Below are positions 7,850 through 16,133 of a stretch of 64,000 nucleotides of DNA, piece by piece. Source of the DNA: Rhodopirellula halodulae (GTDB taxonomy: Bacteria > Planctomycetota > Planctomycetia > Pirellulales > Pirellulaceae); the NCBI RefSeq assembly GCF_020966775.1, contig NZ_JAJKFV010000029.1, positions 179,001 through 243,000 of the forward strand, in the 5' to 3' direction. Positions within the stretch are counted from its first letter, which is position 1. Each line of letters starts with the position of its first letter. The notes beneath the pieces were generated by a model. The model saw only the letters and a list, made by a program, of their open reading frames with translations. It made no database searches and had not been told where the DNA came from. Both the position numbers and the translations under genes were made by a program.

Positions 7850-8899
7850 ATGTCGCTTGAGTCTCCTTCTTCCATGCGCGTTCTGCTCAGCCAATCGGGC
7901 GATTTGTCGGATTGCATTTTGACGCTGCCCATGGCGTGCTCCCTTCGCGATCATTTTCCGGACGCCACCATTGCAATGGCTGTCTCGGTCGAAGGGGCGG
8001 ACTTTCTGAATAGCCATGCTGCGATCGATGAAGTGATTCAGTTGCCAACGCGATGGAACCGATCCCCGCGTGGAATTCGTTCCGTGAAACAGCAACTGAC
8101 GGCGAGCAGCTTCGACGTGGCCATCGATTGTCACGATACCTTTGTGTCCGCGTTGGCATGCCAGTTGTCAGGCGCCGAGCGACGAATCGGATGGGATACC
8201 GGCCCGACCTTCGCGCCGCGACGAGGTTTGTTGAATGAATTGGTGACTCCGGTGTTTCACCACGTCGTCGATCAACGTTTGGAGTTGTTGACGCCTCTGT
8301 CGATCGATCGGCCGCGTGCCCGATTTGATTGGCCGGTCAGCAGTGAAGACCATCGTTGGGCAATGCGTTACCGGCACCAGTGGGCCGGTCGAGATTTGGT
8401 GTTGATGGACACCGGTCGCGTGTCGACTTCCGTTGGATGGATGTTTGACCGTTACGCAGCAACGGCCAGGTACATCGCGGACCGCTACGGGATGCACACG
8501 ATCGTGACTTGGCGTTCATTCGAAGAACGACTGAAGGCGGAGCAGGTGGTTTCGTGTGCCGCCGGAACCGCGACGCTGGCTCCGGATTTGACCCTCGATT
8601 TGACCGCCGCGCTCTGTCCATTGGTTCACGCGGTCATCGCGGAAGACACGCCCGTTTTGCACGCTGCGGTAGCCGCGGGAGCGAACGTCGTTGGTCTGTA
8701 CGGTGAACCGGAAGGCCCCCTGTCGCCCTCCGCTCGTGGCCCTTATCAAATGGAAGCTTTCGCGATGCAACCGGCCGCACAAACCGCTTTTGGCCGAGGC
8801 GGATTGAATCGTCGCGAAGCCATTCAACGCATTGGCGTCGAACACGTTTGCCAATGGTTGGACAAAATTCAGGCTGCGGACGTCGCGCGAGCCGCTTAA
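7850..8899 (+). CDS. Glycosyltransferase family 9 (heptosyltransferase-like)
   Basis: The 349-residue protein has the GT9 layout: an N-terminal Rossmann half beginning MRVLLSQSGDLSDCILTLPMACSLRDHFPDATIAMAVS, the segment FDVAIDCHDTFVSALACQLSGAERRIGWD, and a C-terminal half with DLTAALCPLVHAVIAEDTPVLHAAVAAGANVVGLYGEPEGPLSP, which matches the sugar-nucleotide-binding region in ADP-heptose:LPS heptosyltransferases. The conserved N-terminal core starts at the ATG at 7874, so either that or 7850 could be used. It is the first gene of the surface-polysaccharide cluster. The actual sugar donor cannot be told from sequence. Confidence 0.88.
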   Translation: MSLESPSSMRVLLSQSGDLSDCILTLPMACSLRDHFPDATIAMAVSVEGADFLNSHAAIDEVIQLPTRWNRSPRGIRSVKQQLTASSFDVAIDCHDTFVSALACQLSGAERRIGWDTGPTFAPRRGLLNELVTPVFHHVVDQRLELLTPLSIDRPRARFDWPVSSEDHRWAMRYRHQWAGRDLVLMDTGRVSTSVGWMFDRYAATARYIADRYGMHTIVTWRSFEERLKAEQVVSCAAGTATLAPDLTLDLTAALCPLVHAVIAEDTPVLHAAVAAGANVVGLYGEPEGPLSPSARGPYQMEAFAMQPAAQTAFGRGGLNRREAIQRIGVEHVCQWLDKIQAADVARAA

Positions 8900-9352: not shown

Positions 9353-11266
9353 ATGGATCATTCAGTCTCGCGTCGGAAGGTGGAAAACCTGGTCAGCGCC
9401 GGTTCACATCAAGCACGCAAACTAGCCCGCCGTTTCAGCCTGAAAAGATTGGTGCGAAATGTCTGGCCTTCGAAACGCAGAAAAGGAGTCCGACGGTTTG
9501 TCGATCCTTCGATTGGTCGTGAGGGTTTGTTCAGGACGCTGAATGATCGTAATGTCAATTATGTTGTTTTGCGGTGGTTTGAGAATGTACCCGAATGGCC
9601 TGAGGGTGAAGACATCGATTTGCTGATTGATGTCGACGACCTGCACCTGGTGGATGATCTGTTCGTCACGAACAGTCGAGAAATTCCATGCGACGTTTAC
9701 GGTACCGGACCGGCGAAAAACGCATGCTGGAAAGGCCTGTCGTACTACCCTCCGTATCTCGCTGAGCAGATCGTCCAATCTCGAACATTGTATCGGGACC
9801 TCTGCTACATCCCTGATGAAGACCATTACTTCCTGTCATTGGCGTATCACGCTCTTTACCACAAAGGAAGTGCTTCTGGGTTGCCGTGGGACGATAGCGA
9901 CGCAGCAACAAAGTCGAGCAAGCAGCAAAGCGATCACGACTATGCTGACCGATTGAAGGCTGCCGCGCCTGCCAAATTCATCGACACTCCGATGACGATG
10001 AAGGGGTTGGAGTGTCTGCTGACGAGTCAGTCTTGGAATCCCCCCGTTGACACTTTGCGACGGTACGCATCGCTGCGACCAGAACTTGCCCAATTTCTTC
10101 CGCCCCCCATCGAGAACAAAGATGGTGAGCTGATTGTCGTGCTGTTCCGGCAATCCGCAGTGGACAATCATATCTTGGAAGAAGCGATTTCGCTGTTCCG
10201 TCAAAAGCACCGTTTGGAAGTGGTCGGTCAACACGAGCTGTCGACTGAATCAGCGAAGCTTGCTTCCAAACACATTCGGGGAGGAAACTGGGATGAAGGT
10301 CCGTTTCCTCAGTCTGGAGGATTGCCCGCTGTTGCTCTGGCTTTGTTTGACTATCACCCAGTCGAACCGACACCAGCGGAAAAGGAACAGTATCCCTACA
10401 TACAGAATCGTCGAGTTCTTTTCAAAAAAGAGATCAGGCGTCTGCTGAACAAGCGTCTGCCAAAATCACAGTGGAACAACTGTGTGCATTCCAGTGACGA
10501 CGAGCTTGAAGGGTTGGAATACCTCGAGATCATCGACCCCTCCTTCCATGCGGAAGTACAAACGCAGCTCAGTTACTTGCGGCGTCATTACAAGACTCCT
10601 GAGCCAGTCATTCGCTCACTTCGCAAGCCGGCCAACCGCTCAAAAACGGAGCTGGTCGAATGGAATGGAAAAGAAGCTGTTCGGAAAACGTTTCGGCCAA
10701 GCTTCAAGCGGTTCTGTGATCGCGAAATATTTATCTATCAGACCTTGGGGCCGAAACTGGAGACCGTGCCAGAACTGCTGGACTTCGACGAATACAGCTT
10801 TGTGCTCCCAAAGTACGAAAACTGCTTGGCCGGTTTGTCTCTTCGCAAACAAGGCAAGCTTCTGAAACCCTACGCGAATCAGGTGATCGAATTGCTTCGC
10901 GCCACATTCGCGTTGGAACGTGCCATCATTGATTTTCATCCGGGCAATTTGATCCTGACGCCGGGAGGTGATCTCTATTTCGTCGACTTTGAGTTTGCTC
11001 AACCAATTCCGGATTGGCCAAGTTCGTTCATGCAGTCACCGGATCTCGTCGGGCTTCCACCGGGCTTCTCGGGCGATCGTCCCAGCAATTTGCCTGAAAA
11101 CGGCTATTCCTACGACGACTTCTGGAAGCCAATCTTTCAGTGCAGCCTCGAGGAACTCATCCGGCAATGTGACGTCGATCCCACGTCTGCTGCGGAGCAA
11201 AGTTTGTCAATCTCTGATCTGCCACCAGGTGAGAACTCGGATTCCCGTCTTCGGCAAGCAGGATGA
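9353..11266 (+). CDS. Three-part protein: nucleotidyltransferase-like, NDK-like and APH-type kinase-like domains
   Basis: The 637-residue protein sits in the glycosyltransferase cluster. Residues about 55-180 resemble a nucleotidyltransferase-type domain (NYVVLRWFENVPEWPEGEDIDLLIDVDD, acidic pair D87/D89). Residues about 259-405 resemble nucleoside diphosphate kinase: ELIVVLFRQSAVDNHILEEAI at the first strand and helix, then the active-site-like NNCVHSSDDELEG with H379 where NDK has NxxHGSDSxE. Residues about 435-570 look like a small-molecule or RIO-type kinase: K445 (VRKTF), hinge FVLPKYEN, catalytic loop IIDFHPGNLIL with D527 and N532, and metal site FVDFEF with D545. Each assignment rests on motif reading only. 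The order and location suggest phosphorylation and nucleotide activation of a polysaccharide precursor or lipid, which is inference. Confidence 0.75.
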   Translation: MDHSVSRRKVENLVSAGSHQARKLARRFSLKRLVRNVWPSKRRKGVRRFVDPSIGREGLFRTLNDRNVNYVVLRWFENVPEWPEGEDIDLLIDVDDLHLVDDLFVTNSREIPCDVYGTGPAKNACWKGLSYYPPYLAEQIVQSRTLYRDLCYIPDEDHYFLSLAYHALYHKGSASGLPWDDSDAATKSSKQQSDHDYADRLKAAAPAKFIDTPMTMKGLECLLTSQSWNPPVDTLRRYASLRPELAQFLPPPIENKDGELIVVLFRQSAVDNHILEEAISLFRQKHRLEVVGQHELSTESAKLASKHIRGGNWDEGPFPQSGGLPAVALALFDYHPVEPTPAEKEQYPYIQNRRVLFKKEIRRLLNKRLPKSQWNNCVHSSDDELEGLEYLEIIDPSFHAEVQTQLSYLRRHYKTPEPVIRSLRKPANRSKTELVEWNGKEAVRKTFRPSFKRFCDREIFIYQTLGPKLETVPELLDFDEYSFVLPKYENCLAGLSLRKQGKLLKPYANQVIELLRATFALERAIIDFHPGNLILTPGGDLYFVDFEFAQPIPDWPSSFMQSPDLVGLPPGFSGDRPSNLPENGYSYDDFWKPIFQCSLEELIRQCDVDPTSAAEQSLSISDLPPGENSDSRLRQAG

Positions 11267-11577: not shown

Positions 11578-12576
11578 ATGAATAATAAGTACGCTGTTGG
11601 CACTTCGTTGGAGCCAACTGTCGCCACGCTACAAGCCAGTGTGAGTTCAGGGAAATCTCGGTCACGAAAGTCCGAACGTTTTGACGCGACGACTCACTCA
11701 ACTTCATCCACAGTCCTTCCCTACTCTGAAACAGAGTCACTGTGGAAACGATGCAGGCGATTGCCCTGGACAATGCTCCATCAGCTCACAGGGGGCAAGA
11801 TCGCACAGGCATGTCTGGCTCGCACCGCCATCGTTTCTCAGCGGATGATGGGAATCGGAGCGGGGGCGGGAGTAATGAATAGCGGAGAGGCCAACTTATT
11901 CAAAATGTTACGACGCCGAGCAAGTGGATCTCTCGTCGTCTTTGACGTCGGAGCCAACCATGGGCAATTCTTGAGTTTGGCACGCAAGTCACTCGAAGGG
12001 GCAGACTATCAAATTCATTGTTTCGAACCCTCCAAAGAAGCTTTTCGGTCTCTCCTGAGCCGTGGACCTGAATCACGGGTCATACTCAACAATTTCGCGG
12101 TGGGAAACAGTGAAGGAACTCGCGTGCTGTACTACGATCGATCTGGTTCGGGGATGGCGTCGCTGACTAAACGAGAGCTTGCCCATCGAGGGATCCAATT
12201 TGACCAGTCAGAAGACGTCTCGGTCGCCACGCTTGACAGCTATTGCGAAACACGCGAAATCCACAACATTGATTTGCTCAAACTCGACATTGAAGGCCAT
12301 GAGCTGGAAGCTTTGAGAGGAGCCGAGAGAACATTTGACAGAAACGCCGTCGGCATGGTGATGTTTGAGATGGGCGGCTGCAATGTCGATACACGCACGT
12401 TTTTTCGAGACTTCTGGCGGTTCTTCACCGATCGCAAAATGACCCTGCATCGAATCACTCCCTCGGGGCGTTTACTGGAAATTCGTCGTTACAAAGAAAC
12501 TCACGAGCAATTCCGAACCACAAATTTTGTCGCTATCCGGCAGGATGATCAGCAATCGGAAATGGAAAGCTGCTGA
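11578..12576 (+). CDS. FkbM family methyltransferase (first of three)
   Basis: The 332-residue protein has the FkbM core. Motif I is VVFDVGANHGQFLSLARKSL (about 120-140), then IHCFEPSKEAF, a middle segment with VATLDSYCE, and LLKLDIEGHELEALRGAE, the family's 'DxEGxE' signature. The C-terminal TNFVAIR is also typical. FkbM enzymes O-methylate sugars or polyketides. The first 80 or so residues, Ser/Thr-rich then basic (WKRCRRLPWTMLHQLTGG), lie outside the core, so the true start could be later than 11578. Neighbouring glycosyltransferases point to methylation of a surface polysaccharide. Confidence 0.87.
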   Translation: MNNKYAVGTSLEPTVATLQASVSSGKSRSRKSERFDATTHSTSSTVLPYSETESLWKRCRRLPWTMLHQLTGGKIAQACLARTAIVSQRMMGIGAGAGVMNSGEANLFKMLRRRASGSLVVFDVGANHGQFLSLARKSLEGADYQIHCFEPSKEAFRSLLSRGPESRVILNNFAVGNSEGTRVLYYDRSGSGMASLTKRELAHRGIQFDQSEDVSVATLDSYCETREIHNIDLLKLDIEGHELEALRGAERTFDRNAVGMVMFEMGGCNVDTRTFFRDFWRFFTDRKMTLHRITPSGRLLEIRRYKETHEQFRTTNFVAIRQDDQQSEMESC

Positions 12577-12714
12577 GGCTTTGTTCCCATAGGCGAACTG
12601 GGAGAAATTCTAGGTTCTCCAGGTTTTGGATTCGGTCTTGCAGCGAGAGGCCGCCATTTGATATGCCCTGGTGATCCCCGCATCTTGCCAGGACGCTTAG
12701 CGAATTGAATCAGC

Positions 12715-13563
12715 ATGGCTACACCGATGAAGCCTGAAATCAGCGTGATCATCACAACGTTCAATGCACCCGATGAGCTGTGGCTCGTCCTGGTTGGATA
12801 CCAGATGCAGACGGAACGCAATTTCGAGATCTTGATCGCCGATGACGGTTCCGATTCGAAGACGGCAGCCGTGATTGAACGATTTCGCCAAACGTGCGAT
12901 ATAGAAACGCATCATGTCTGGCACGAAGATGCGGGCTTTCGGAAATGCGAGATCCTGAACCGGGCCATTGAACTGGCCAACAGTGATTATCTGCTTTTCA
13001 CGGATGGAGATTGCATCCCCAGGCCGGACTTTCTTGCGGTCCACCTGCGTGAAGCGGAGCCGAAGCGGTTTCTGTCTGGCACCTACAACAACCTCCCAAA
13101 GTCGTTCAAAGGACTGATCACTGAATCGAATGTTCGTTCAGGAACCGTGTTTCAGTCGAAATGGCTTCGTGAGAACGGGATGCCGCAGAATTTTAAAAGC
13201 CTTCGGCTAATCCAAAACAAAGCTTTGATTTCCATTCTGAACCGTCTTACCACAACCCGTCCCACTTGGAATGGATGTAACGTCTCGGGGTGGAAGTCGG
13301 ACGTTATAGCCGTCAACGGGTATGACGAAAGAATGCGATACGGAGGACTCGATCGCGAAATTGGTTTACGGATGAACAATTTAGGAATTCGTGGGAAGCA
13401 AATTCGATTCAAGGCCATTTGCTTGCACGTTGATCATCCACGGGGTTACATGAACGACGAAGATTTGAAAAAGAATCTGTCGATTCGCAATGAAACCATC
13501 CGTGGCAATGTCACCCGCACCCCTTACGGTATCCAGCGTGACGGTATCCAGCGTGCGGCGTGA
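12715..13563 (+). CDS. Glycosyltransferase family 2 with galactosyltransferase-type C-terminus
   Basis: The 282-residue GT-A enzyme begins PEISVIITTFNAPDELWLVL. ILIADDGSDSKT supplies the nucleotide-binding Asp pair, YLLFTDGDCIPRPDFL the DxD metal site, and WNGCNVSGWKSDVIAVNGYDERMRYGGLDREIGLRM the acceptor-side motif seen in the Glyco_transf_7C group. No membrane segments are present, so it is probably a cytoplasmic enzyme acting at the inner face of the membrane. The extreme C-terminus contains a duplicated GIQRD/GIQRA caused by a perfect 15-bp tandem repeat. The stop codon lies two bases before the likely start of the fucosyltransferase gene. Confidence 0.9.
   Translation: MATPMKPEISVIITTFNAPDELWLVLVGYQMQTERNFEILIADDGSDSKTAAVIERFRQTCDIETHHVWHEDAGFRKCEILNRAIELANSDYLLFTDGDCIPRPDFLAVHLREAEPKRFLSGTYNNLPKSFKGLITESNVRSGTVFQSKWLRENGMPQNFKSLRLIQNKALISILNRLTTTRPTWNGCNVSGWKSDVIAVNGYDERMRYGGLDREIGLRMNNLGIRGKQIRFKAICLHVDHPRGYMNDEDLKKNLSIRNETIRGNVTRTPYGIQRDGIQRAA
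13526..13555 (+). repeat. Perfect 15-bp tandem duplication inside the GT2 gene
   Basis: ACGGTATCCAGCGTG occurs twice head to tail (13526-13540 and 13541-13555) in the last codons of the glycosyltransferase gene. The unit is five codons, so the frame is kept and the C-terminus gains YGIQR/DGIQR. It looks like a recent slippage duplication and a possible site of length variation between strains. Confidence 0.9.
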
Positions 13564-13565
13564 CA

Positions 13566-14513
13566 ATGAATTCAGTCCATCGTGAATTGTCTGAATCCGT
13601 TCGCGTCGCCGACGGCCGTATTGCTGATGAAGCCGGCGTAAACCGTGGGGTGAGTGATCCAAGCAAGGCTTGCGTGATTTCAATTAGCGGCGGGCTCGGG
13701 AATCAGATGCTCCAATACGCTGCTGCTCGAGCGTATTCGATTCATCATGGATGTTCCTTGTTCCTGGATCTGAAGTTTTATTCCAGTCGACGGCATCGGT
13801 CTTTTGAGTTGGATGCGTTTCCGATCCAAGCGGAAAATTGGGTGAAGCCGAGTCTGATCAGTGAATTTGTGAATAAGTTGCGAGGAGGCAGGGAATCGGT
13901 TCCAGTCTATCAAGAAGAATCCAAGCGATTTGACCCACGATTCTTTGAAACGAGTCCACCGCTGAAGCTTCGCGGTTACTTCTTTTCTGAGAAGTATTTT
14001 TTACCCTATGCGGATCAAATTCGGTCTGAGTTGACTCCACCTGTAGCACCGGACCAACCCGCACGTGAGATGGCTCGCCGTCTCAGTGAGAATATGTCGA
14101 CGTCATTGCATGTTCGTCGGGGTGACTACGTGAGCAACCCGAATGCACGGCAGCGGTTCTGGAGTTGCACAAGCGAATACTTTGAAGCGGCGATTGAGAT
14201 GTTGCCTGCTGACTCAACTGTCTTTGTTTTTTCCGATGACATTGAGTGGGCGAAGAAAAATATCCGCTCGTCTCGAAAAACCGTTTTCGTCAATGATGAA
14301 CTGAAGCGAGCTGGGTCGCCTGATACCGGTTTGAGAGACTTGTGGCTGATGACGCATGCCAAGTCGCATGTGATTGCCAACTCGTCGTTCAGTTGGTGGG
14401 GAGCTTGGCTATCTGGTTCAGAAGCGAACTTGACGATCGCTCCCAAAAAATGGTTTAACGATCCAGAGGTCGATGACTCTGATATTGTTCCGTCAACATG
14501 GCTACGGATCTAG
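13566..14513 (+). CDS. Glycosyltransferase family 11 (alpha-1,2-fucosyltransferase type)
   Basis: The 315-residue protein has the three GT11 signatures: the N-terminal donor-site motif ISGGLGNQMLQYAAARAYS, the HxRRGDY motif as LHVRRGDYVSNP near residue 180, and NSSFSWWGAWLS near the C-terminus, with VFVFSDDIEWAKKN between. The family transfers fucose from GDP-fucose to the 2-OH of an acceptor sugar. An in-frame GTG at 13560 overlaps the preceding stop, but the ATG at 13566 is the more likely start. Together with the preceding GT2 it is probably one transcription unit. This is the best clue to the chemistry of the polysaccharide: a terminal or branch fucose-like sugar. No GDP-fucose synthesis genes are in the window. 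Confidence 0.9.
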   Translation: MNSVHRELSESVRVADGRIADEAGVNRGVSDPSKACVISISGGLGNQMLQYAAARAYSIHHGCSLFLDLKFYSSRRHRSFELDAFPIQAENWVKPSLISEFVNKLRGGRESVPVYQEESKRFDPRFFETSPPLKLRGYFFSEKYFLPYADQIRSELTPPVAPDQPAREMARRLSENMSTSLHVRRGDYVSNPNARQRFWSCTSEYFEAAIEMLPADSTVFVFSDDIEWAKKNIRSSRKTVFVNDELKRAGSPDTGLRDLWLMTHAKSHVIANSSFSWWGAWLSGSEANLTIAPKKWFNDPEVDDSDIVPSTWLRI

Positions 14514-14576: not shown

Positions 14577-15272
14577 ATGTTCAACTACCTTCTGAAATAC
14601 TCACGCCGCAAAATTGACCCGATTGATCTGCTTCAGCGGCTGACCGAAGGCAAGGGCGAGTATCGCAGTCTTGTGCATGTTGGTGCTCATCTGGGTCAGG
14701 AACGGTCAAACTACGAATCGAAAGGTTATCGTAAGATTCTGTGGATCGAAGGTTCAGAAGAAATCCATGCGAAGCTCGCAAGTTTGCTGCTGAAGCATGA
14801 CGGTCCTGCCGAGCACAGCACCGCTTGTGCACTGTTAAGTGATCGCGACGGGGACGAACTGGGGCTTCGTTGTTTCAGCAATGATGGCATGTCGAATTCT
14901 ATTTTTGCTCCCGCGGACCAGTTGAAGCAAAGATGGCCTACAGTCCAAGAAACTGGCGAAGTCGAAGTCCAGCGTTCAGTCACACTCGATCGGCTACTGG
15001 CGGACACTCCATTCTCTCAGAACTGCGACGTTTTGGTTGTGGACGTGCAGGGGGCGGAATTGTTGGTTCTCAAAGGTGGTCTTGCAACGCTGCAACGCGT
15101 GAAGGCGGTGGTTTGTGAGGTGTCCACCGTGCCCTACTACGATGGCGGAGTTCTATTCGATGAATTGAATCAATTCATGGAGTCCCATGGATTCCAGGCA
15201 ATGTCGACGCCTCGTCGCCACGGTGACATGCTCTTTATGCCGAAGACGGCACGGGCCAAACAGGCCGCGTAA
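14577..15272 (+). CDS. FkbM family methyltransferase (second of three)
   Basis: The 231-residue protein is a compact FkbM enzyme: SLVHVGAHLGQERSNYESKG near residues 31-50 (SAM loop), KILWIEGSEEIHAKL (acidic residue after the second strand), and CDVLVVDVQGAELLVLKGGLATL, with VQGAEL replacing the usual EGxE. The C-terminus VCEVSTVPYYDGGVLFDELNQFMESHGF is typical of the family. It sits 63 bases after the fucosyltransferase gene. Sequence divergence from the other two FkbM proteins here is large, so the three probably methylate different positions or sugars rather than being recent duplicates. Confidence 0.85.
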   Translation: MFNYLLKYSRRKIDPIDLLQRLTEGKGEYRSLVHVGAHLGQERSNYESKGYRKILWIEGSEEIHAKLASLLLKHDGPAEHSTACALLSDRDGDELGLRCFSNDGMSNSIFAPADQLKQRWPTVQETGEVEVQRSVTLDRLLADTPFSQNCDVLVVDVQGAELLVLKGGLATLQRVKAVVCEVSTVPYYDGGVLFDELNQFMESHGFQAMSTPRRHGDMLFMPKTARAKQAA

Positions 15273-15329: not shown

Positions 15330-16133
15330 ATGTCGAATCAACTCAAACAGCTCAAGCAGACATGGCGGCTTTGTGGCTCGGTTGCGAACGCATTCAAAGG
15401 CAAGGTTCGGACTGCACTCGGTATTCGCAAGCCAACGAAGACATGCCAAATTCCCGAGCTGAAACACATTGTTGACGAAACGTTCCTCGAAAAACAGGAT
15501 CGCGTTTTCGTCGAGGTCGGAGCTTACGACGGTGAGCGATTTTCCAATACCTCGTGGCTCGCTGATGCCGGATGGCGGGGTTTGTATGTTGAGCCATCGA
15601 AGCAGTTCTCTCGCTGGTGTCGTTTGCGTCACATGCTCAATCGCGTGACGGTTCTGAACGTTGCCGCGGGAAGTGAGGACGCCAAGGCCACGCTTCAGCA
15701 AATTGGTTCGCTCAGTACCATGAGCCAAGCAACATTCGAGGAATACGACCGAATCACTTGGGCGAAACAGCAGGTTGCAAAGGAATGTAAGCAGCAGCAA
15801 ACGGAAGTGCTTCGGCTGGACCGAATTCTTGCCGATCAAAAGATTCCACGCTCCTTTGATATCCTTGTCGTGGACGTGGAAGGCTACGAAGAGAATGTTT
15901 TCTCTGGCTTTTCATTGTCGCAGTGGAAGCCGAAGCTGATCATCGTGGAGTTGTGTGACATCCATCCAGACTTCCAAGACAATCGGGAACTTGTGGAATC
16001 CGCGAGGCGTGTTCGACAAACGATTCTTGATGCGGGCTACCGAGAGAAATACGCCGACAGTATCAATACGGTCTTTGAGGTGGAAGAGACTTCGGCGTCC
16101 GTCACGGCGACGAACAATCGAATCGCCGCTTGA
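15330..16133 (+). CDS. FkbM family methyltransferase (third of three)
   Basis: The 267-residue protein begins with a Lys/Gln-rich helix (SNQLKQLKQTWRL), then DRVFVEVGAYDGERFSNTSWLAD (SAM loop, about 60-82), WRGLYVEPSKQFSRW, VLNVAAGSEDAKATL, and FDILVVDVEGYEENVFSGFSLSQWKPKLIIVELCDIHPDF, the FkbM 'DVEGxE' signature. It is the last plus-strand gene of the polysaccharide cluster and converges with the GT-A gene at 16226. Confidence 0.87.
   Translation: MSNQLKQLKQTWRLCGSVANAFKGKVRTALGIRKPTKTCQIPELKHIVDETFLEKQDRVFVEVGAYDGERFSNTSWLADAGWRGLYVEPSKQFSRWCRLRHMLNRVTVLNVAAGSEDAKATLQQIGSLSTMSQATFEEYDRITWAKQQVAKECKQQQTEVLRLDRILADQKIPRSFDILVVDVEGYEENVFSGFSLSQWKPKLIIVELCDIHPDFQDNRELVESARRVRQTILDAGYREKYADSINTVFEVEETSASVTATNNRIAA

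Follow-up and report, generated by a model that had tools for sequence, protein, structure and literature searches.

A conserved fusion of nucleotidyltransferase-like, divergent NDK and kinase-like domains in a surface-glycan gene cluster of Rhodopirellula

Background

In a 64,000-nucleotide stretch of the Rhodopirellula halodulae genome (hereafter, the window), the gene at positions 9353-11266 encodes a conserved fusion of three domains: a putative remote NTP_transf_5-like nucleotidyltransferase (NTase), a divergent NDK domain in which the catalytic histidine is kept, and a kinase-like domain putatively related to WaaP/Kdo glycan kinases. The gene lies in a surface-glycan cluster, and the three-domain combination is real and common to scattered relatives. 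In the most economical view, the protein would be an enzyme that decorates a surface glycan with phosphate or activates it, each reaction step of which we infer.

NDK is known mainly as a housekeeping enzyme, and planctomycete envelope chemistry is, to our knowledge, poorly known. In the open-licence literature we found no paper on such a fusion of NDK, and nothing on NTP_transf_5 (PF14907). The initial annotation of this DNA had proposed, from motifs, a three-part protein with NTase-like, NDK-like and kinase-like domains. That observation is confirmed: the gene is real, every motif-based domain call was supported by profile tests against permuted controls, and the motif sites (D87/D89; NNCVHSSDD with H379; D527, N532 and D545) all lie where they had been placed.

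Results

A real gene under purifying selection

The intact reading frame (Table 1), the shared start methionine and the dN/dS ratios establish the open reading frame as a real gene under purifying selection. The same start methionine is found in the aligned Rhodopirellula europaea protein (L002), which is 84% identical over residues 1-637, and in another ortholog of the same genus (L126, on a single contig of 7,145,576 bases). Comparison of three Rhodopirellula gene pairs gave dN/dS ratios of 0.02-0.10 across the NTase and kinase segments. The NDK segment had the lowest dN of the three domains in each pair (0.03-0.05); its dS was saturated, and hence undefined, in two of the three pairs, and dN/dS was 0.04 in the third. 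The C-terminal tail (residues 606-637) changes fast, with dN of 0.20-0.49.

The source genome contains one match to the protein at E up to 10. Searches with the single sequence returned weak kinase-loop matches in Pfam (APH, E=0.005) and NCBIfam (LanKC, E=0.001), and three PDB chains at E of 0.11 or worse, with no NDK among them; the domain evidence therefore rests on relatives. A full-length AlphaFold model built from two sequences reached a pLDDT of 31.8 and was set aside.

Table 1. Features of the window (plain coordinates) and of related stretches (handle before the colon)
Feature	Location	Strand	Basis
Whole gene, 637 aa, ATG to stop	9353..11266	+	frame read through
NTP_transf_5-like nucleotidyltransferase domain, residues 50-250; D87, D89, D114 candidate metal carboxylates	9500..10102	+	hhalign, conservation
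Divergent NDK domain, residues 255-405 (R266, RGGNW 309-313, R362, N376, H379, S381, D382)	10115..10567	+	hhalign, PDB profile search, AlphaFold, Foldseek, residue map
H379, aligned with the catalytic (phospho-)His of NDK	10487..10489	+	His in 13/13 members with the domain
Kinase-like domain, residues 415-605; K445, E458, D527, N532, D545	10595..11167	+	residues, hhalign, weak Pfam APH/Pkinase/ABC1
GT9 glycosyltransferase	7850..8899	+	PF01075 E=1.5e-17
FkbM methyltransferase	11578..12576	+	PF05050 E=6e-21
GT2 glycosyltransferase	12715..13563	+	PF00535 E=1.7e-17
GT11 glycosyltransferase	13560..14513	+	PF01531 E=2.6e-30
FkbM methyltransferase	14577..15272	+	PF05050 E=3.4e-19
FkbM methyltransferase	15330..16133	+	PF05050 E=1.3e-24
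N-domain + P-loop part	L019:385-1680	-	hmmsearch; weak thymidylate-kinase match
N-domain + P-loop part	L029:1198-2817	+	hmmsearch; weak thymidylate-kinase match
N-domain preceded by stretch ending KIHGTNSPEEVRHDLALLFG	L015:532-2121	+	N-domain by hmmsearch
WaaP/Kdo-type kinase fused to GT2 part	L043:5814-7430	-	PF06293 E=5.6e-11
WaaP/Kdo-type kinase	L043:18455-19834	-	tblastn
WaaP/Kdo-type kinase	L044:6695-8410	-	tblastn

A patchy and modular family

With the protein as query, matches were found in 7 of 196 genomes of the order, the source genome counted. Family profiles gave matches in 3 of the 13 genomes searched in the genus, in 6 of 43 genomes in family f7, in 2 of 9 in the class to which genome G247 belongs, and in at least 5 of 397 in the source's own class, a set that overlaps with the earlier ones. 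Across the phylum, profile A1 gave hits with E of 0.001 or lower in at least 67 of the 392 genomes, most of these rows covering the kinase part of the profile alone; in both the phylum and the own-class searches two candidates were scored per genome, so these counts are lower bounds. From the phylum search we accepted as family members the protein itself and those of G373, G247 (two copies) and G348; two proteins of G205 and the stronger of the two rows of G473 were classed as stand-alone kinases. Candidates from G314, G566 and G528 were rejected as members, their match being confined to the N-domain part. No relative of the protein was found in the plasmid collection by tblastn or in viral contigs by pattern scans.

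The final alignment (A5) comprises 14 members, 13 with the NDK domain and 7 with the C-terminal kinase. The three Rhodopirellula proteins consist of NTase, NDK and kinase domains; four others (L003, L004, L046 and L124) carry the same three preceded by an extra N-terminal region, as read from the alignments. The kinase is absent from L005, L006 and L007 (extra region, NTase and NDK) and from L047, L048 and L049 (NTase and NDK, with the start codon chosen by us inside longer open frames), and L008 retains the extra region and the NTase only. The family is patchy and modular, and its C-terminal kinase, absent from 7 of the 14 members, is optional; a fixed series of all three activities is therefore not required.

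The extra region spans about 150-200 residues in L003-L008, L046 and L124 and is absent from the three Rhodopirellula proteins. By eye it is like a degraded Rossmann or methyltransferase domain; it gave no Pfam match at E up to 1.

The N-terminal domain is a putative remote NTP_transf_5-like nucleotidyltransferase

The NTase-like call for the N-terminal domain is supported by hhalign, which suggests a remote relationship to NTP_transf_5. The profile of the 14 members aligned with that of 11 NTP_transf_5 proteins over 176 columns (Prob 77.0, P=2e-5). The score was 41.5, compared with 24.8 for the highest-scoring of 80 permuted controls and 18.0 for the middle domain against the same set. Both groups share a DxD motif, a third carboxylate further on and then a helical region; they differ in that the KG motif of the compared NTP_transf_5 proteins is LRW here, and identity in the profile alignment is 10%. 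D87/D89 is kept in 12 of 14 members, L049 and L008 being without the DxD, and the D114 column is Asp in 10 members and Glu in 2, the remaining 2 having other residues. The Pfam model PF14907 itself gave no match at E up to 1 among 12 members and none at E up to 0.001 in the source genome.

The same N-domain was detected by hmmsearch in proteins from L015, L019 and L029 (E=5.7e-15, 2.3e-12 and 2.6e-11, computed for a single-sequence search space; the lowest E among 900 shuffled sequences was 9.1e-5). The NTP_transf_5 profile matched L029 and L019 at 1.5e-5 and 8.4e-5, marginally better than shuffled sequences (1.9e-4), and gave no match to L015. In the L019 and L029 proteins a P-loop motif stands in place of the NDK domain, and the partner part resembles a nucleotide-kinase-type domain, with thymidylate-kinase matches of E=0.00069 and 0.14, respectively, both below the cut-off; neither protein had a kin-profile match above shuffled sequences. 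The N-domain may thus recur with nucleotide-kinase-type partners, and its pairing with NDK or, apparently, thymidylate-kinase-like parts suggests a chemistry that consumes or returns nucleotides. By eye, L019 sits among genes resembling an exopolysaccharide cluster.

In L015, the stretch in front of the N-domain, ending KIHGTNSPEEVRHDLALLFG, is by eye like the NDK His motif, but an NDK-like part was not supported (E=0.0074, no better than shuffled sequences) and we treat it as a lead. Pfam and NCBIfam returned no match for L015, and relatives were absent from plasmids, phages and viral contigs.

The middle domain aligns and folds as a divergent NDK

Residues 255-405, compared as a profile of 11 members with 59 canonical planctomycete NDKs, gave an hhalign Prob of 95.8 (P=7.3e-9) and a score of 56.2; among 100 column-permuted controls the highest score was 28.5. 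Windows of the protein lying outside the domain or overlapping it by a few residues scored 14.8-20.0, and half-overlapping ones 35.6-36.0. With all 13 NDK-bearing members the result was Prob 96.0 and P=4.7e-9. Against 30 close NDKs the signal was weaker (Prob 33.7, P=7.7e-5), and there was none with those 30 when the family was represented by two Rhodopirellula sequences or by L047-L049.

When the family profile was run against PDB sequences, 51 of the 53 distinct matches at E up to 10 were named NDK (best E=5.3e-6); the other two were thioredoxin domain-containing protein 6 (E=0.0041) and ribosomal protein L13 (E=1.1), and the matches included no solved protein of the nucleotidyltransferase or kinase type assigned to the two flanking domains. 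At an E threshold of 1, the Pfam NDK model (PF00334) was detected in 3 of the 12 members scanned (best E=1.9e-6), one of them, L046, over its cut-off (28.2 vs 27 bits), and the NCBIfam NDK model matched 4 of 14 (best 2.4e-5).

For residues 254-410, AlphaFold run with two sequences gave a best pLDDT of 71.3 and a pTM of 0.70, with the other four models at 50.9-61.4 and the lid region (residues 310-322) mostly below pLDDT 50. The strands and helices of the best model follow the NDK order, and H379 falls in the last short strand. Among the best 50 of 724 Foldseek matches in the PDB (E up to 10), 47 were named NDK, NDPK or NME and the remaining three were axoneme chains (9fqr_HY, 9fqr_HX and 7jrj_K). 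These 50 had E-values from 1.1e-3 to 9.2e-3, none at or below 0.001, probabilities of 0.84-1.00 and TM-scores by query length of 0.32-0.51, modest values from which we consider the model rough; Foldseek also uses sequence, so the fold match is not fully independent of the homology. Both lines agree with the motif-based NDK call for this region, and a non-NDK fold, the outcome set beforehand as refuting it, did not appear.

A canonical NDK is present in 40 of 40 genomes of one set, the source included, and in 54 of 59 of another. With an ordinary NDK in all 40, the fused domain is not the housekeeping enzyme and has another task.

Separately, four open reading frames of 400-445 aa (on G205:C295, G231:C297, G244:C66 and G250:C169) showed split NDK matches, covering about positions 1-51 and 68-128 of the profile, as if an insert sat inside the NDK domain.

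The catalytic histidine is kept and several other pocket residues are replaced

The profile alignment maps H118 of NDK to H379, N115 to N376, R105 to R362, K12 to R266, F60 to W313, Y52 to S305 and E129 to Y390 (human residue numbers were set on the motif by eye). By this alignment, through which the second refuting outcome set beforehand (H379 away from a nucleotide pocket) was examined, H379 appears to occupy the phospho-His position proposed for it. Shared with NDK are the homology over the whole domain, the N-x-x-H followed by S and D, the arginine at R105 and an aromatic residue at F60. The differences are an arginine at the K12 position in 13 of 13 members, no Tyr at Y52 and no Glu at E129 in any of the 13, a variable T94 column (the alignment is gapped around R88/T94), extra residues before N115, and the fusion to other domains. 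In addition, the lid region contains an RGGNW motif that is invariant here. Residues H379, D382, R266, R309, N312, W313 and P325 are identical in all 13 NDK-bearing members; R362 is kept in 12 and N376 in 10, with His in the other three. L048 is without R362 and S381.

In NDK the base is clamped by F60 and V112, the ribose is bound by K12 and N115 and the phosphates by R88 and T94, and E129 holds H118 (PMC10253429, PMC7461546); NDPK activity is weak or absent in human NMEs that lack some of these residues (PMC7461546). We accordingly read the middle domain as NDK-derived, with its histidine maintained by selection and ordinary NDP-kinase activity unlikely.

The C-terminal domain is kinase-like and putatively related to WaaP/Kdo kinases

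The K, E, D, N and D residues are complete in all ten sequences with the kinase domain, seven fused and three stand-alone. Against a set of 13 Kdo/WaaP-type kinases, ten of which came from 30 fetched loci and three from L043 and L044, hhalign gave Prob 83.9, P=7.8e-6 and a score of 45.3 over 113 columns; the best of 60 permuted controls scored 20.1, and the other two domains 13.4 and 13.9. Kdo/WaaP was the one kinase family compared by profile, and the result would place the domain in the kinase superfamily rather than in a subfamily. The features shared with Kdo/WaaP kinases (PF06293) are these five residues and the glycan-cluster setting, whereas the likeness is seen by profile comparison only, with no hmmscan match to PF06293 in the members scanned.

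The initial annotation had named the APH family as one comparison for this domain. Its kinase-like character stood, in the residues and the Kdo/WaaP alignment; the APH cut-off was missed, the protein scoring 17.1 bits vs 23.2 for PF01636. Over 12 members at E up to 1, Pfam returned APH in two (best 7e-5), Pkinase in two and ABC1 in one, and NCBIfam LanKC matched 7 of 14 members (best 4.5e-5), far below its cut-off. Given these other weak matches, WaaP is not singled out.

Glycan genes surround most members

The location beside glycosyltransferases, part of the initial description, extends to the family: glycosyltransferase genes lie near 10 of the 14 family genes. These neighbours were called by Pfam in the window, L008 and L046, by Pfam of some genes and blastp clusters in L002 and L040-L044, and by eye in L126. 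No glycosyltransferase was seen near the genes of L047, L048, L049 and L124, where neighbours were judged by eye, with Pfam run on six in all. In the window, the fusion gene follows the GT9 gene and is itself followed by FkbM, GT2, GT11, FkbM and FkbM genes. The GT2 gene belongs to a blastp cluster (c3 of five) also found near the family gene in L002, L040, L041 and L043. All three stand-alone kinase copies lie near glycosyltransferase-type genes as well (L050 and L051 by Pfam, L052 by blastp cluster).

When three WaaP-type kinase domains were searched by tblastn over 17 stretches, L043 (two copies) and L044 were matched, both being neighbourhoods of members without a fused kinase; a further weak match (E=6.6e-4) was the family's own kinase domain in L002. 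A WaaP-type neighbour therefore accompanies 2 of 7 kinase-less and 0 of 7 kinase-bearing members, in stretches some of which are short, a difference that is suggestive and not significant.

In R. europaea the blastp partner of the upstream GT9 gene (L002:13228-14298, - strand) is found on the opposite strand at the far end of the cluster, which indicates that the cluster has been rearranged. In L126, a transposase-like open reading frame (12012-12941, + strand) is seen by eye between the ortholog and an FkbM gene.

Discussion

The reading that we favour, and hold tentatively, is an enzyme whose handling of phosphate serves to decorate or activate a unit of a surface glycan or a lipid-linked sugar; the reaction is inferred. 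In the proposed scheme, the C-terminal kinase would phosphorylate a sugar acceptor at the expense of ATP, and the N-domain would pass a nucleotidyl or substituted phosphate group to that acceptor or, in the manner of LicD-type enzymes, obtain the group from a nucleotide donor. Nucleotide binding would fall to the NDK-like domain, with W313 where F60 stacks on the base, and H379 would carry a phosphate, either for recycling of the spent nucleotide or for relay between the two active sites. NTase and NDK would form the core pair, and the kinase a detachable module, fused or supplied by another gene. We favour this reading because of the profile tests on each domain, the invariant NDK residues, the complete kinase residues and the glycosyltransferase neighbours, together with the WaaP-type genes near L043 and L044, the recurrence of the N-domain and the ordinary NDK elsewhere in the genomes. 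Against it stand the replacement of K12, Y52 and E129 and the variable T94, the lack of R362 and S381 in L048, the loss of DxD in L049 and L008, the absence of the NDK domain from the latter, the 4 of 14 genes with no glycosyltransferase seen nearby, the small number of WaaP-type neighbours, and the weak matches of the kinase part to other kinase models.

In one alternative, which we regard as rather unlikely, the NDK-like domain is catalytically dead and acts as a nucleotide sensor or oligomerisation platform, leaving the chemistry to the NTase and the kinase. Such a dead NDK-like domain is exemplified in eukaryotes by RP2/NME10. The loss of E129, K12 and Y52, with the weak or absent NDPK activity of such human NMEs (PMC7461546), means that the domain may only bind or assemble. 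However, a dead domain would be expected to drop the histidine in some members, and all 13 NDK-bearing members, from at least two classes, have H379, D382 and an arginine in place of K12, with R362 in 12 of them and N376 in 10. The initial annotation had suggested a route to a precursor, with phosphorylation, the charging of a histidine and the activation of a sugar or lipid on one chain. Spelled out, the kinase would yield a sugar-1-phosphate or lipid phosphate, the NTase would convert it to a nucleotide-activated precursor and the NDK would regenerate the NTP, much as in fused kinase-pyrophosphorylases such as FKP and HldE. Three phosphate- or nucleotide-handling domains on one chain beside GT11, GT9 and GT2 genes are consistent with it, but we consider it improbable: the N-domain aligns with NTP_transf_5 proteins (the sole comparison set), the kinase is missing from half of the members, and the kinase family compared by profile, WaaP/Kdo, acts on assembled glycans.

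A protein-directed or regulatory role, with the C-terminal kinase phosphorylating a protein and H379 taking part in a protein phosphorelay, would fit the weak Pkinase and LanKC matches. These, however, span about 40-55 residues round the catalytic loop only, most neighbourhoods contain glycan genes, and the stand-alone kinases share that setting, so that this role seems very unlikely. Within the favoured reading of a glycan-directed enzyme, the boldest form makes the NDK fold a phospho-His relay by which phosphate would be handed, within one polypeptide, between the nucleotidyltransferase and the glycan kinase; the RGGNW lid would then select a donor or acceptor that is not a nucleoside diphosphate. 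We rate this form as a distinctly long shot.

Conclusions

The domain boundaries and residues given here make the NTase-NDK-kinase fusion directly testable. A lineage whose NDK fold has been joined to an NTase and a glycan-type kinase within surface-glycan clusters, the catalytic histidine being kept and other residues of the pocket exchanged, would suggest that planctomycete envelope chemistry includes a step not yet described, and, if the relay reading were true, this would be a new kind of enzyme for phosphorylated surface glycans.
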